Assembly: GCA_027488965.1 (NCBI GenBank)
Contig: JAIYAO010000188.1
Coordinates: forward strand, 1 to 32,709
DNA length: 32,709 nt
Source of the DNA: Alphaproteobacteria bacterium
GTDB lineage: Bacteria > Pseudomonadota > Alphaproteobacteria > Caulobacterales > Aquidulcibacteraceae
Reading direction: 5' to 3'
Of this stretch, positions 1,148 to 21,957 are shown piece by piece (the stretch's first letter is position 1; the number at the start of each line of letters is the position of its first letter). Made by a program: the position numbers and the translations under genes. The notes beneath the pieces were generated by a model. That model was not told the origin of the DNA, made no database searches, and was given only the letters and a program-made list of their open reading frames with translations.

Positions 1148-1214
1148 GGAGCAGGGGCGACCCCGCCCCTGCACCCATGCCGCCCCGGGGCGCGGACGAG
1201 GTCGTCCGCGCTCC
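1148..1214. repeat. REPIN-like element (two inverted REP hairpins)
   Basis: First arm at 1148-1172: GGA, then a 9-bp stem around an A-CC-C centre. After about 19 bases comes an inverted second arm at 1191-1214: GCGGACGA-GG-TCGTCCGC followed by GCTCC. The second arm is nearly identical to the arms beside the RAYT transposase at 6253. The first arm differs in sequence but keeps the pairing. It lies between the lipoprotein stop and the next gene. Confidence 0.75.
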
Positions 1215-2714: not shown

Positions 2715-2802
2715 GGGACCACCGGCTTCCAGCCGGCAACAGCGTCACACGATCACAGACCGCGCCTGCCACGCACCATGCCGGCTGGAGGCCGGCGGTC
2801 CC
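2715..2802. repeat. 88-bp inverted-repeat element, second palindrome family
   Basis: A 23-base arm at 2715-2737 (GGGACCACCGGCTTCC...) is repeated inverted at 2780-2802 with two mismatches, 42 bases apart. Each arm also contains its own CCGGC/GCCGG hairpin, so the element has REPIN-like architecture but a sequence unrelated to the RAYT-linked family. It fills most of the 232-base gap between chorismate mutase and the DUF533 gene. Confidence 0.7.
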
Positions 2803-6177: not shown

Positions 6178-6243
6178 GGAGCGCGGACGACCTCGTCCGC
6201 GTCAACTTTCGACGACGTGCGTGGACGGGGTCGTCCACGCTCC
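6178..6243. repeat. REPIN upstream of the RAYT gene
   Basis: First arm: GGAGC then GCGGACGA-CC-TCGTCCGC (6183-6200). A 19-base spacer follows (6202-6220), then the inverted arm GTGGACGG-GG-TCGTCCAC ending GCTCC (6221-6243). The arms begin GGAGC and end GCTCC as mirror images. The downstream REPIN has a spacer identical at 15 of 19 bases. Confidence 0.85.
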
Positions 6244-6252
6244 GGGGTGGTG

Positions 6253-6762
6253 ATGCGCAAGCGCCTTCCTCACGTGGATGCGCCGGGGCACGTGCAGCAC
6301 ATCGTGTTCTGCGTGCGCGGAGCCTTCACCGCCGCGTTGCCGAACGCCCCGGACCGGATCGACGTTGCGGACCGCGCGCTGGATGAAAGTCAGATTGGTC
6401 GTATTCTTCTGGGCCACGCGGCCGACGCCGTTCTCCGTGTCCTCTTGTTCGGCATCCCCGATCAGTATCGCCTGCACGCGTGGTGCGTGATGCCGAACCA
6501 TGTGCATGCCCTTGTCGCGCCGAACCCGGGCATTCCAGCGCCATTGATTGTCCAGCGGTGGAAATCGATCTCGGCGCGGGCGGTGAACCGATTGCTCGAC
6601 CGTGACGGCGCACTGTGGCAGGCCAATTACTTTGATCGTTACATGCGCGATGAGGCGCAGTTGACGGCGACTGCGGAATACATCGAGCGCAATCCAGTGG
6701 TGGCAGGGCTGGTCGAAAGGCCCTGCGACTGGCGCTGGTCTTCTGCCTGGATGGACGTGTGA
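6253..6762 (+). CDS. REP-associated tyrosine transposase (RAYT, IS200/Y1 superfamily)
   Basis: 169 residues from ATG 6253; GTG at 6247 and 6250 are in-frame alternatives, and the REPIN ends 9 bases before the ATG. The frame holds the Y1 HUH nuclease signature: M-P-N-H-V-H-A-L-V (the H-V-H pair binds metal) and the downstream helix W-Q-A-N-Y-F-D-R-Y with a candidate nucleophilic Tyr, followed by Y-I-E-R-N-P-V-V-A-G-L-V, typical of RAYTs. The N-terminal H-V-Q-H-I-V-F-C-V-R-G also fits. RAYTs nick and join REP hairpins as single strands and spread them through the chromosome. It is complete with no frameshift. Its codons are less GC-biased than neighbours (for example ATT, TTG, TTT), suggesting acquisition. 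Confidence 0.92.
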   Translation: MRKRLPHVDAPGHVQHIVFCVRGAFTAALPNAPDRIDVADRALDESQIGRILLGHAADAVLRVLLFGIPDQYRLHAWCVMPNHVHALVAPNPGIPAPLIVQRWKSISARAVNRLLDRDGALWQANYFDRYMRDEAQLTATAEYIERNPVVAGLVERPCDWRWSSAWMDV

Positions 6763-6763
6763 G

Positions 6764-6788
6764 GCATGGACGAGGTCGTCCATGCTCC
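6764..6788. repeat. Solitary REP hairpin
   Basis: CATGGACGA-GG-TCGTCCATG (6765-6784) is a perfect 9-bp stem with a two-base GG centre followed by CTCC. It starts 2 bases after the RAYT stop and has the polarity of the second arm of a REPIN. Confidence 0.8.
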
Positions 6789-6853
6789 GGAGCTCGGACG
6801 ACCTCGTTCGCGTACACTTTCGAGGACCTGCGCTGACGAGGTTGTCCACGCTC
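6789..6853. repeat. REPIN downstream of the RAYT gene
   Basis: First arm: GGAGCT then CGGACGA-CC-TCGTTCG (6795-6810, one G-T wobble). The 19-base spacer (6813-6831) resembles that of the upstream REPIN. The second arm (6832-6853) has two mispairs, so it looks partly decayed. It ends 5 bases before the stop codon of the minus-strand acyl-CoA ligase. Confidence 0.8.
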
Positions 6854-6857
6854 CCGC

Positions 6858-9413: not shown

Positions 9414-9440
9414 CCCCCGCAATCTAGCGCAGGCCGCGCG

Positions 9441-9505
9441 CGCGGGCGACCTCGCCCGCGGCCGGTCTTGTGCGTCAGCAACGTGGGCAGGGGCGCCCAC
9501 GCCCC
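9441..9505. repeat. Diverged REPIN-like element
   Basis: First arm CGCGGGCGA-CC-TCGCCCGCG (9441-9460) is a perfect 9-bp stem with the family CC centre. After 22 bases comes an inverted arm (9483-9505) matching 18 of 23 bases of the RAYT-adjacent second arm. Bases in the stems have changed together compared with the RAYT-adjacent copies. It fills the gap between the 114-residue gene and hisI. Confidence 0.65.
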
Positions 9506-9510
9506 TGGGG

Positions 9511-18715: not shown

Positions 18716-19291
18716 ATGCTCCAGGTCCTGCGTCCCGCCCTCGTTCTCCTCGCCTTGTTCACGGTGCTTACGGGGATCATGTACCCCCTGACGGTCAAGG
18801 GGATCGGGCAGGTACTGTTTCCCACCGCCGCCAACGGATCGGCGATCTTGCGGGACGGCCGCGTGGTGGGCTCCGCGCTGATCGGCCAGGCCTTCACCGG
18901 CGACGACTACTTCTGGGGGCGCCCCTCGGCGGCGGGCAACGGCTACAACGCCCGGTCTTCCGGCGGCTCCAATCTCGGGCCCTCGTCGCAGGCGCTCGCG
19001 GACCGGGTGCGCGAGACCGCTGAACGCTACGGCGGCCCCGTGGCCGACATTCCCGTGGAGCTCCTCACCGCATCCGCGTCCGGACTCGATCCCCACATCT
19101 CGCCGGTGGCCGCCCGGTTCCAGGCGCCGCGGGTGGCCACGGCCCGCGCCTTGCCAGCGGCGCAGGTGCTGGCGTTGATTGACGCCCACACCGAAGCCCC
19201 GATCGGGGGTATCGTGGGCGAAGCGCGCGTGAATGTGCTTCGGCTCAACCTGGCGCTCGATGAATTGGCCCCGAGGAGCGGCGCTCCATGA
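18716..19291 (+). CDS. kdpC: K+-transporting ATPase subunit KdpC
   Basis: 191 residues: one N-terminal membrane helix (L-V-L-L-A-L-F-T-V-L-T-G) and a periplasmic domain. Family motifs are Y-P-L-T-V, G-S-A-L-I-G-Q, F-W-G-R-P-S-A, S-S-G-G-S-N-L-G-P-S-S, and D-P-H-I-S-P-x-A-A. KdpC is an essential structural subunit that raises the K+ affinity of the complex. Start chosen at ATG 18716, which gives the standard N-terminus. The stop overlaps the kdpD start codon (ATGA at 19288), so pump and sensor are translationally coupled. Confidence 0.97.
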   Translation: MLQVLRPALVLLALFTVLTGIMYPLTVKGIGQVLFPTAANGSAILRDGRVVGSALIGQAFTGDDYFWGRPSAAGNGYNARSSGGSNLGPSSQALADRVRETAERYGGPVADIPVELLTASASGLDPHISPVAARFQAPRVATARALPAAQVLALIDAHTEAPIGGIVGEARVNVLRLNLALDELAPRSGAP

Positions 19292-21957
19292 ACGATCCGG
19301 ACGACCGGCGCCCATCGCCCGACGCCCTGCTGTTGCAGGCGAAGGCGGAGGGCCGCGGCAAGCTCAAGATTTATCTCGGGGCGGCGCCAGGCGTCGGGAA
19401 GACCTTCGAGATGCTGTCCGATGCGCGCAAGAAGCGCGCCGACGGCATCGATGTCGCAGCGGGCGTCATCGAAACCCACGGGCGCAAGGAGACGCTGGCG
19501 CTGTGCGAAGGCCTGGAGATCATTCCCAAGCGCAAGCTCGGCTACCGCGGCCAGGAACTGGAGGAAATGGACATCGACGCGCTGCTGGCGCGCCGCCCGC
19601 AGATCGCGCTGGTAGATGAACTCGCCCACACCAACGTGGAGGGCTCGCGCCATCCCAAGCGCTGGATGGACGTGGAGGAACTCCTGTCGGCGGGCATGGA
19701 TGTGTGGACCACGCTCAACATCCAGCACCTCGAAAGCCTCAACGACATCGTCGCCCGCATCACGCGCGTGCGCGTGCGTGAAACGGTGCCTGACGCCCTG
19801 ATCGACCGCGCCGACGACATAGAGCTGATCGACCTGACGCCGGAGGAGCTGATCGAGCGGCTGAAGGAGGGCAAGGTCTATGCGCCCGACCAGGCGCAGA
19901 GGGCGGTGCGCAACTACTTCGCGCCGGGCAATCTCTCGGCGCTGCGCGAACTGGCCATGCGCCGCGCCGCCGACCGCATCGACCAGCAGGTCCGTGGCCT
20001 GCGCCAGGCCCAGGGGGAGACGACGCCGTGGGCGGCGGGCGAGCACATCCTTGTGTGCGTGGACGACCGGATCGACGCGGCCGAAGTGGTGCGCCACGCC
20101 AAGCGCCTCGCCGATCGCGCCAAGGCGCAATGGAGCGCCGTCCACATCCAGACCGCCCGCGACGGCCGCCTCACGGAGGTCGAGCGCGGCCGCATCGCCG
20201 AGACCATGCGGCTGGCCGCGCGCCTCGGCGCCGAAACCGCGTCCCTCCCCGGCGACAGGGTGGCCGATGCGGTGCTCGCCTACGCGCGCGAACAGAACGT
20301 CACCCAGATCGTCGTCGGCAAGGCCAAGCGCCCGCGCGCGTTCGAGGCGGTGTTCGGCTCCGTCGTGCGCGACCTGATCGACCGCGCGGAGACCATCGCC
20401 ATCTACGTCGTGCCCGAGGAGGGCGGCGGCGCCCGCAAGCGCCCGCTGGGCGACCTCCTGCCGTGGCCGGCGCTCACCGCGGGCGGCGCCCTGCAGAGCG
20501 TCGGCCTCACGGCGCTGGCCACCATCACGGCCTATCCGCTCGATGCCTTTATCGGCGTCTCCAACCTCACGCTGGTGTTTGTCGCCGCCGTGCTGATCAG
20601 CGCACTGACGCGGGGCCTGTGGCCGGGTCTGCTGACGGGGGTCCTGTCGGCGCTGGCCTACAACTGGTTCTACACCGATCCCCGCTTCACGTTCACCGTG
20701 GCCGACCCCGAGAACGTGCTCGCGATCCTCGCGTTCTCCGGCGCCGCCATCCTCGTGTCGCTTCTGGCCGCGCGTGCGCGCGAGCAGACGCATGTGGCGC
20801 GCACCGAGGCCAGGACGTCGCGCGAACTCTTCGGTCTCGCCCGCGGTCTCGCCAGCGTCGCCACCGAGGACGAAGTGGCGCAGACGCTGGCGGCCTACAC
20901 CGCGCGCGCCTTTGATGCCGAGTGCGCAGTGTTCGCGAGGGTGGGCGTCAATGACCTGCGCCTCGCCGGGACTGCGCCGGACGCGGCCAACCTCACCGAC
21001 GCCGACATGGCGGCGGCGCGCTGGACGGCGGACAAGGGCGAACCCGCAGGGCGCGGCGCCGATACGCTGCCCGGCGTGCGGTGGCTGTTTATTCCGCTGC
21101 GCACCTCGCGGCTCTTCGCCGGCGTGCTTGCGGTGGCGCGCGATGCCTTGCTGTCGCCGTCCGAACGCCGGCGTCTCGACGCCATGTCCGATCAGGCGGC
21201 CACGGCGCTGGAGCGCGCCCACATCGCGCGCGCCTACGAAGAGGGGCGCGTGGAAATGGAGGCCGAGCGGCTGCGCGCCACCATGCTCTCGTCCCTCTCG
21301 CACGACCTGAAGACGCCCATCGCCGGCATCCTCGGCGCGGCCTCGAGCCTGCGCGCCTATGGCGACAAGCTCGACGCCGCCACGCGCAACGACCTACTCG
21401 GCGGCATCGAGGCGGAATCGGAGCGCATGCAAAGCTACGTGGCCAAGCTGCTCGACATGACGCGCCTCGACGCGGGGGGCCTCAAGCCGCGCGTGGAGGC
21501 GCTCGACGTGGCCGATGTGGTGGCGGCGGTGGTGAAACGCGCCGAGCCGCTCGCAGAAGGCGTGTGGCTGGAGGGCGACGTCACGCCGGGCCTGCCGTGG
21601 CTGCGAACCGATTCCACGCTCCTGCACCAGGTCCTGTTCAACCTCGTGGAGAACGCCATCGTGCACGGCGCGCGCGCGGTGGACGGCGGCGAGGTGCGCC
21701 TCGCCGCGCGGATGGTGGATGGCGGCATCACGTTCGAGGTCGTCGACAACGGCCCGGGCCTGCCCGCAGGCGCAGAGACCCGCGTGTTCGACCGCTTCTT
21801 CCGGGGCGAGAAGACACGCGCCAGCGGCACGGGCCTCGGTCTCGCCATCGCCAAGGGGTTCGCCGCCCTGATGGGCGCGCGCATCGACGCGCACAACCGC
21901 CGCGGGCGGGCGGGCGCGGTCTTCACCCTTGCCTTTCCCGAATCCGCGACGGCATGA
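19288..21957 (+). CDS. kdpD: Osmosensitive K+ channel sensor histidine kinase KdpD
   Basis: 889 residues, full length. The N-terminal KdpD domain has Walker A G-A-A-P-G-V-G-K-T (31-39) and the A-L-V-D-E-L-A-H-T-N motif. A USP-like domain follows (H-I-L-V-C-V-D-D-R). Four membrane helices (about 390-500) form the DUF4118 sensor, then a GAF-like region. The kinase core has His672 in S-H-D-L-K-T-P, N-L-V-E-N-A-I-V-H-G (N box), D-N-G-P-G-L (G1) and G-T-G-L-G-L-A-I (G2). KdpD senses low K+ or osmotic stress and phosphorylates KdpE; in E. coli c-di-AMP or IIANtr-type inputs can act on the N-terminal part in some species. It overlaps kdpC by four bases. Confidence 0.97.
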   Translation: MNDPDDRRPSPDALLLQAKAEGRGKLKIYLGAAPGVGKTFEMLSDARKKRADGIDVAAGVIETHGRKETLALCEGLEIIPKRKLGYRGQELEEMDIDALLARRPQIALVDELAHTNVEGSRHPKRWMDVEELLSAGMDVWTTLNIQHLESLNDIVARITRVRVRETVPDALIDRADDIELIDLTPEELIERLKEGKVYAPDQAQRAVRNYFAPGNLSALRELAMRRAADRIDQQVRGLRQAQGETTPWAAGEHILVCVDDRIDAAEVVRHAKRLADRAKAQWSAVHIQTARDGRLTEVERGRIAETMRLAARLGAETASLPGDRVADAVLAYAREQNVTQIVVGKAKRPRAFEAVFGSVVRDLIDRAETIAIYVVPEEGGGARKRPLGDLLPWPALTAGGALQSVGLTALATITAYPLDAFIGVSNLTLVFVAAVLISALTRGLWPGLLTGVLSALAYNWFYTDPRFTFTVADPENVLAILAFSGAAILVSLLAARAREQTHVARTEARTSRELFGLARGLASVATEDEVAQTLAAYTARAFDAECAVFARVGVNDLRLAGTAPDAANLTDADMAAARWTADKGEPAGRGADTLPGVRWLFIPLRTSRLFAGVLAVARDALLSPSERRRLDAMSDQAATALERAHIARAYEEGRVEMEAERLRATMLSSLSHDLKTPIAGILGAASSLRAYGDKLDAATRNDLLGGIEAESERMQSYVAKLLDMTRLDAGGLKPRVEALDVADVVAAVVKRAEPLAEGVWLEGDVTPGLPWLRTDSTLLHQVLFNLVENAIVHGARAVDGGEVRLAARMVDGGITFEVVDNGPGLPAGAETRVFDRFFRGEKTRASGTGLGLAIAKGFAALMGARIDAHNRRGRAGAVFTLAFPESATA

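Follow-up and report, generated by a model that had tools for sequence, protein, structure and literature searches.

The RAYT gene and the REP elements of the window

The window, meaning the whole stretch of DNA that was analysed (32,709 nucleotides), corresponds to contig C54 in a draft genome of 3.28 Mb and 200 contigs, for which we infer, as did the sequence-only reading, an alphaproteobacterial host. At positions 6253..6762 of the + strand it carries a RAYT (TnpAREP) gene encoding 169 amino acids from the ATG at 6253 to the stop at 6762; the upstream GTG at 6217, an alternative start, would fall within the repeat element named REPIN 1 below. The reading frame is intact and contains the HUH motif in the form NHVH and the catalytic tyrosine within YIERNP (YIERNPV). 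The scores of the ORF exceeded the cut-offs of Pfam Y1_Tnp (41.9 bits, cut-off 23) and of NCBIfam NF047646 REP_Tyr_transpos (86.3 bits, cut-off 80), which confirmed the HUH/Y1 transposase previously recognized there from the letters of the DNA, and the match to the IS200 model NF033573 was weak (27.8 bits, cut-off 55). The fold of the protein was predicted from an alignment of 24 sequences (mean pLDDT 86). Its best Foldseek match was 4ER8, the E. coli TnpAREP with REP (E 1.3e-8, TM 0.65/0.67), and TnpAREP stood above ISDra2 and IS608 in the search order. Elsewhere in the window, a KdpD-type sensor kinase gene occupies positions 19288-21957.

The RAYT gene is surrounded by REP hairpins. REPIN 1 (6178..6243) ends 9 bases before the ATG and comprises two REPs with heads outward (GGAG...CTCC), stems of 8-9 bp, NCCY loops and a spacer of about 17 nt. 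One base past the RAYT stop a single REP on the - strand (6764..6788) with a GGAG head and the loop ACCT is abutted back to back by REPIN 2 (6789..6854), the right arm of which is partly degenerate. The hairpin pairs said to bracket the gene were thus found on both sides, at the expected 9 bases upstream, with the difference that the previously overlooked single REP precedes the downstream pair; the spacers of the two full REPINs were, as had been noted, alike at 15 of 19 positions. REPIN 3 (1148..1214), in which both loops start with ACC, belongs to the same family. Also missing from the first element count was an inverted pair with GGAC heads and the loop TCC (2716..2801), which represents a separate small family (5 matches in the genome at ≤1 mismatch and 9 at ≤2, control 0).

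The folding z-scores were -5.1 for REPIN 1, -3.3 for REPIN 2, -5.7 for the single REP and -5.3 for the copy at 1148, so that of the two further copies reported originally this one holds. The other, at 9441, lies in an element (9437..9508) made of two GC-rich hairpins with no GGAG head on either side and a z-score of -2.1; it is a doubtful copy, either degenerate or unrelated. The arm pattern was met 8 times in the window at ≤3 mismatches in comparison to 0.20 expected, and 0 of 100 shuffles reached 8; one of these matches is the palindromic complement of another, leaving 7 arms. The excess of matches together with z-scores from -3.3 to -5.7 indicates that the arrangement in the window is not due to chance. 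The Rfam search of the window gave no match.

REPIN populations of the genome and of its relatives

The arm pattern GGAGCNNGGACGACCNCGTCC had 55 matches in the whole genome at ≤2 mismatches (7 for the reversed-pattern control) and 43 at ≤1 mismatch (1 for the control). At the latter threshold 54 of 60 genomes of the family had 0 copies, the control giving 0 or 1 in each genome, and other members with copies were G029 (7) and G028 (4), both of the same genus, G025 (22), G034 (2) and G039 (1). The RAYT gene is therefore accompanied by a dispersed REPIN population of its own, as proposed from the window. The proposed large size has to be reduced to a moderate one: 29 distinct head-out REPINs of 62-94 bp in two families, plus some singles, were read in the window and in that part of the arm-pattern matches fetched as loci, where some REPINs at contig ends may be counted twice (one identical pair was seen in the GGAC family treated below). 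It had also been considered that the arms might occur equally without the RAYT gene; the counts speak against this, though not cleanly. In 30 of the 33 family genomes with no RAYT match (1e-10) there were 0 copies, and the exceptions were G034 and G039, near the control level, and the 85 % complete G025, all 22 copies of which are a one-mismatch variant.

The dispersal unit appears to be the REPIN, two inverted REPs with a short spacer, given the 29 REPINs and the absence of whole units from relatives at 5 sites. The RAYT gene is not self-amplifying, with 2 copies found in the genome, 66 % identical. Among 58 arms the head was GGAG in 54, GGCG in 2, GGTG in 1 and AGAG in 1, and the loop was NCCY in 57; the GT[AG]G tag was not found 5' of the hairpin foot in the REPs of this genome. 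Stem pairs 6-23, 7-22 and 10-19 vary between G-C and A-T and are Watson-Crick in 54, 56 and 56 of the 58 arms, respectively. A constant head and loop centre with a covarying stem would be expected of a hairpin whose head and loop are read by a protein in the folded state. Within one REPIN the arms mostly differ in the foot dinucleotide (equal in 3 of 29 REPINs, 10.75 expected from shuffles), an AT foot being paired with a GC foot in 17 of 29, i.e. they are mostly heterodimers. Descent from one master and selection against long perfect palindromes are possible causes of the unlike feet.

The second RAYT (L060, C3:6821-7340) is 66 % identical to the window RAYT over its main stretch and is frameshifted in this assembly. 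The REPINs on its two sides are nearly identical and have the loops CCCT and CCCC; the pattern GGAGCNNGGGCGCCCTCGCCC gave 35 matches in the genome at ≤2 mismatches (control 4), a set overlapping with that of GGAGCNNGGACGACCNCGTCC. The first loop base is A in 5 of 5 arms beside the window RAYT and C in 4 of 4 beside the second one, and so it marks off the two RAYT-linked REPIN families of the genome. The two arms also agree in this base in 26 of 29 REPINs; shuffled data gave 15.0 on average, and none of 20,000 shuffles reached 26. For the stem A/G base the agreement was not clear (18 of 29, mean 14.1, p 0.10). In G028, G029, G025 and G034 all 12 readable pairs had equal loop bases, namely A in 6, C in 3, G in 2 and T in 1. 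The regions had been selected with the loop-A pattern and so lean towards A; a further G025 pair was unclear. Descent from two master REPINs may explain most of this agreement. The orthologous REPIN L203 in this genome and L261 in G028, with flanks 80 % identical over 2,755 bp, has C/C loops here and A/A loops in G028 on the same stems, and is the single example of a loop change in both arms.

The window RAYT with its REPINs is accordingly not the sole system of the genome; next to the second RAYT with its own family there is a third, larger REPIN family (e.g. L288-L306) with the head GGACC and the loop CCCT or CCCC, mostly of 72-73 bp. The outer flanks of these REPINs are often inverted repeats too (cgaaaca...tgtttcg, gcgagca...tgctcgc). 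The genome contains 54 exact copies of GGACCGCCGGCGNCCNCGCCGGC, a sequence carried by 31 of the 60 family genomes; the control gave 0 in each of the 60. REPs of this type flank a RAYT of G028; no RAYT for the GGACC family was found in the genome under study, in which contigs often end near these repeats. With no correction for kinship, the median number of GGACCGCCGGCGNCCNCGCCGGC copies was 6 in the 27 genomes with a RAYT match and 0 in the 33 others, and within genus g14 it was 26.5 and 5 (16 and 14 genomes, p 0.025). At least 2 copies were nonetheless carried by 11 of the 33 genomes with no RAYT match. The G025 arms with no RAYT match at 1e-10 and the GGAC family for which no RAYT was found indicate that REPs and RAYT can come apart; the part of PMC3733652 that was consulted reports REPs outliving or losing their RAYT in E. 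coli strains.

Eight of 12 written-out insertion sites were searched by joined flanks in G028, G029, G023 and G025. Five were comparable, L007, L011 and L023 with both flanks matched and L005 and L012 with one flank (for L012 the alignment to G028 covers both sides), each in some of the relatives and on fetched sequences from genomes other than G025; L009 and L025 lie outside this comparison. A REPIN was present in the relatives at 0 of the 5 comparable sites, in agreement with the lineage-specific insertions predicted for an active system. In L007 (C25) a SpoU-family methylase gene contains the REPIN (locus positions 1501-1562) in frame; the element adds 15 residues in comparison to G028 and is placed between the substrate-binding and the methylase domains. 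At L012 the order is EF-Tu gene, terminator-like hairpin and, just behind it, REPIN; both copies of this region in G028 are free of the REPIN. At L018 about 900 bp separate the flanks in G028 and G029, with the REP pattern not better than 3 mismatches there.

A REPIN is common to this genome and G028 at two sites, after the aminotransferase gene of the window and at L203. The shared sites were reached by another route, from the REPs of G028, so that 5 versus 2 does not constitute a rate. The aminotransferase protein is 89 % identical in G028 and 87 % in G029. Downstream of its gene G028 has a REPIN without a RAYT, G029 has neither, and the genome under study has the whole REPIN-RAYT-REP-REPIN block; the RAYT gene may thus have been lost in G028 rather than gained here. 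The DNA identity to the relatives was 80 and 86 % at the two sites measured, which sets them species apart, and hence the empty state of some sites could reflect loss. Some REPINs thus predate the split from G028, and others are unshared. This supports movement after that split; the suggestion that the system is possibly still active gains from it as regards the time since the split, not as regards the present day.

The head tetranucleotide and the guide-contact residue

Near 110 RAYT loci 266 headed hairpins were found in 94.5 kb, compared to 12 in 82.9 kb of control flank, i.e. 2.8 versus 0.14 per kb, about a 20-fold difference. Headed hairpins were present at 86 of the 110 loci, with GGAG at 53, GGAC at 17, GTAG at 14, GTGG at 8, GGGG at 4, GTAC at 3 and GTGC at 1. 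This count allowed only G or T as base 2 and includes loci with two head types as well as a few near-copies; leaving base 2 free (167 loci) changed the result little. The loci were picked by similarity to the window RAYT, and therefore the shares of the heads are not population frequencies. Beside many related genes of other phyla the GG head is nevertheless found as well.

In the sections consulted of four papers (PMC2817692, PMC3733652, PMC6006769, PMC8266576) the REP tag is given as GTAG or GTGG. The corresponding part of PMC3733652 lists the variants GYAG, GYRG, GTRG, GTMG and GTGG, with GGAG not among them, and GGAG as the start of a word was not found in the consulted text of any of the four; it does occur there inside longer strings, e.g. 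GTAGGAGC of Pseudomonas and Xanthomonas REPs. PMC6006769, as far as its accessible text goes, used GT[AG]G as the search tag. With GT[AG]G serving both as the defining tag and as the search key, GG-headed REPs would be missed by design.

The residue Arg141 of the window RAYT (P0001; 181-amino-acid numbering from the GTG) aligns to His101 of E. coli TnpAREP, in the guide-contact region whose role is described in the portion consulted of PMC6006769. Among 167 RAYT loci Arg went with G as head base 2 in 69 and His with T in 19. The exceptions as called were Arg with T (2), His with G (2), Arg with C (1), Lys with A (2), Lys with G (1), Ser with A (1), plus a single gap; the remaining 69 loci had no headed hairpin, many of them being of a RAYT type with another motif (e.g. 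WQGRF). On inspection, both loci with His and G showed GTAGGAGC, in which GTAG stands two bases from the foot, and L174, an Arg locus akin to these two (another class of the phylum), also has GTAGGA. After inspection, fifteen head labels were set by hand: T for L174, L184, L190, L189, L197, L067 and L115, G for L069, L074, L095, L096, L100 and L075, and A for L175 and L176. The counts then were 72 Arg-G, 22 His-T and 3 Arg-T, the Arg rows with GT heads being L067, L115 and L174.

The tree, built without the motif columns, contained 127 of the 167 loci after motif, score and length filters; 97 of them bear both traits, and 29 of its 122 inner branches are well supported. A branch of weak support (SH-aLRT 81) largely separates the GG/Arg from the GT/His loci, and ten group-3-like rows (another class, probably Gammaproteobacteria) stand apart on a long, starred branch. 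On this tree 2 changes are required for head base 2 and 3 for the residue, which gives 1-2 independent pairs and leaves a test of independence with no power. The Arg/His switch as a proven determinant of head base 2 was rejected as such, the pattern being essentially one evolutionary split with exceptions; the link is a lead. RAYTs with Lys at the His101 position (L175, L176, L199) stand beside GAAG-like or GGGG/GGAG-like heads and are possibly further guide types.

Two other candidates were tried. A residue reading head base 4 (GGAG or GGAC) was not convincing: at least 8 changes were needed over 63 loci, the lowest Fisher p in a scan of all columns was 0.0006, uncorrected, and none of the 3 supported independent pairs found for Gln135 agreed. 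The cross-complementarity model in the consulted part of PMC8266576, as interpreted here, predicts CT or CC for GGAG heads and GT or GC for GGAC heads. CC or CT did precede the GGAG head in 36 of 58 arms, and the 38 GGAC-family arms (one REPIN entered twice) were never preceded by GT or GC, the dinucleotides being CA 21, TT 7, TA 4, GA 4 and CG 2, so guide-directed retargeting was not supported.

The system in comparison with known REP/RAYT pairs

The data are best explained by a RAYT (TnpAREP) with a cognate REPIN population in an alphaproteobacterium, most likely acting by the mechanism known from E. coli and Stenotrophomonas, a reading to which we assign a probability of about 0.87. By analogy with the E. 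coli, Stenotrophomonas and Marinomonas proteins, for which experiments are described in the consulted text of PMC8266576, the window RAYT would bind the REP hairpin on single-stranded DNA through the 5' head tetranucleotide and the loop, whose bases it may read, and as an HUH/Y1 nuclease would cut beside the hairpin through a 5'-phosphotyrosine. The unit mobilised in trans would be the REPIN with its two outward heads, the RAYT gene itself staying unamplified.

An IS200/IS605 insertion sequence of the ordinary type, having subterminal hairpins and scattered remnants, would have the same Y1 domain and could account for the weak NF033573 score. It is very improbable, as there are no identical gene copies, the two found being only 66 % identical, the repeats are hairpin pairs with no gene sequence, and the fold search prefers TnpAREP to ISDra2 and IS608. 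That the hairpins are CGTC-tagged alphaproteobacterial REPs with no dedicated transposase, lying near the RAYT by accident, is hardly credible: the host group fits and CGTC does occur in the arm (GGACGACCTCGTCC), but here it is part of the paired stem and often CGCC with the partner changed, whereas the portion consulted of PMC3733652 describes CGTC as an unpaired end and RAYT genes as never flanked by such REPs. The 20-fold density of headed hairpins beside RAYTs also speaks against an accident.

A domesticated or dying RAYT that serves a host function, with REPINs as immobile fossils kept for RNA or chromosome roles, such as terminators or mRNA ends, is in our view rather unlikely, too. The frameshift in the second RAYT, the persistence of REPs in genomes with no RAYT match and the REPIN just past the terminator-like hairpin after the EF-Tu gene are in line with that account. 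The 0 of 5 comparable sites occupied in genomes of the same genus or family, one insertion being in frame in a gene, and the intact frame and motifs of the window RAYT are against it.

A RAYT/REPIN pair is a known kind of system; as variant features this one shows the GG head, the Arg and families marked by the loop. The E. coli TnpAREP/REPtron (4ER8; group 2, subclass 2.2) resembles it in the HUH/Y1 fold, which is the best structural match, in the guide-region motif W-Q-x4-[ED]-x-x-x-R and in having a REP-flanked gene with dispersed inverted REP pairs. It differs in the head, GTAG there and GGAG here (in E. coli no GTAG substitution is tolerated according to the consulted part of PMC8266576), in His101 and Glu100 in place of Arg and Asp, and in a bulged stem in place of a perfect 8-9 bp stem with a 4-nt loop. 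The Stenotrophomonas, Pseudomonas and Marinomonas systems (group 3, subclass 2.5) share the short perfect stem, the 3-4 nt loop with important positions, the REPIN as mobile unit and several RAYTs per genome, each with its own REP type, but their GTAG or GTGG, in some cases 1-2 nt from the stem, contrasts with the GGAG that adjoins the foot here. In its guide motif the window RAYT has a D and an R that recall subclasses 2.5 and 2.7 as reported in the accessible text of PMC6006769. TIRYTs/TIRtrons (Di Nocera 2013) are likewise RAYT relatives flanked by non-GTAG repeats, with some moderate dimeric families; their TIRs share GGGGWSAS or are mutually unrelated, unlike the self-complementary REPs with a near-constant GGAG/GGAC head described here. 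With the CGTC-tagged alphaproteobacterial REPs the host group and the head-to-head dimers are common, and the unpaired CGTC end and the want of a dedicated transposase are both unmatched here.

As a tentative proposal, more probably wrong than right in its full form, a broad RAYT clade would use GG-type guide heads instead of GT-type ones, set at least partly by a His-to-Arg change at E. coli position 101, and the first loop base would be an address by which an entire population of REPINs is tied to one RAYT among several, so that both arms could be re-addressed at once.

According to the part consulted of PMC3733652, Alphaproteobacteria seem to carry REPs without a transposase. An alphaproteobacterial RAYT with a matching REP population is described here. 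The two RAYTs and two populations in one genome, differing mainly in one loop base, provide a natural comparison, and the Arg at the His101 position is a candidate residue for recognition of the guide base.
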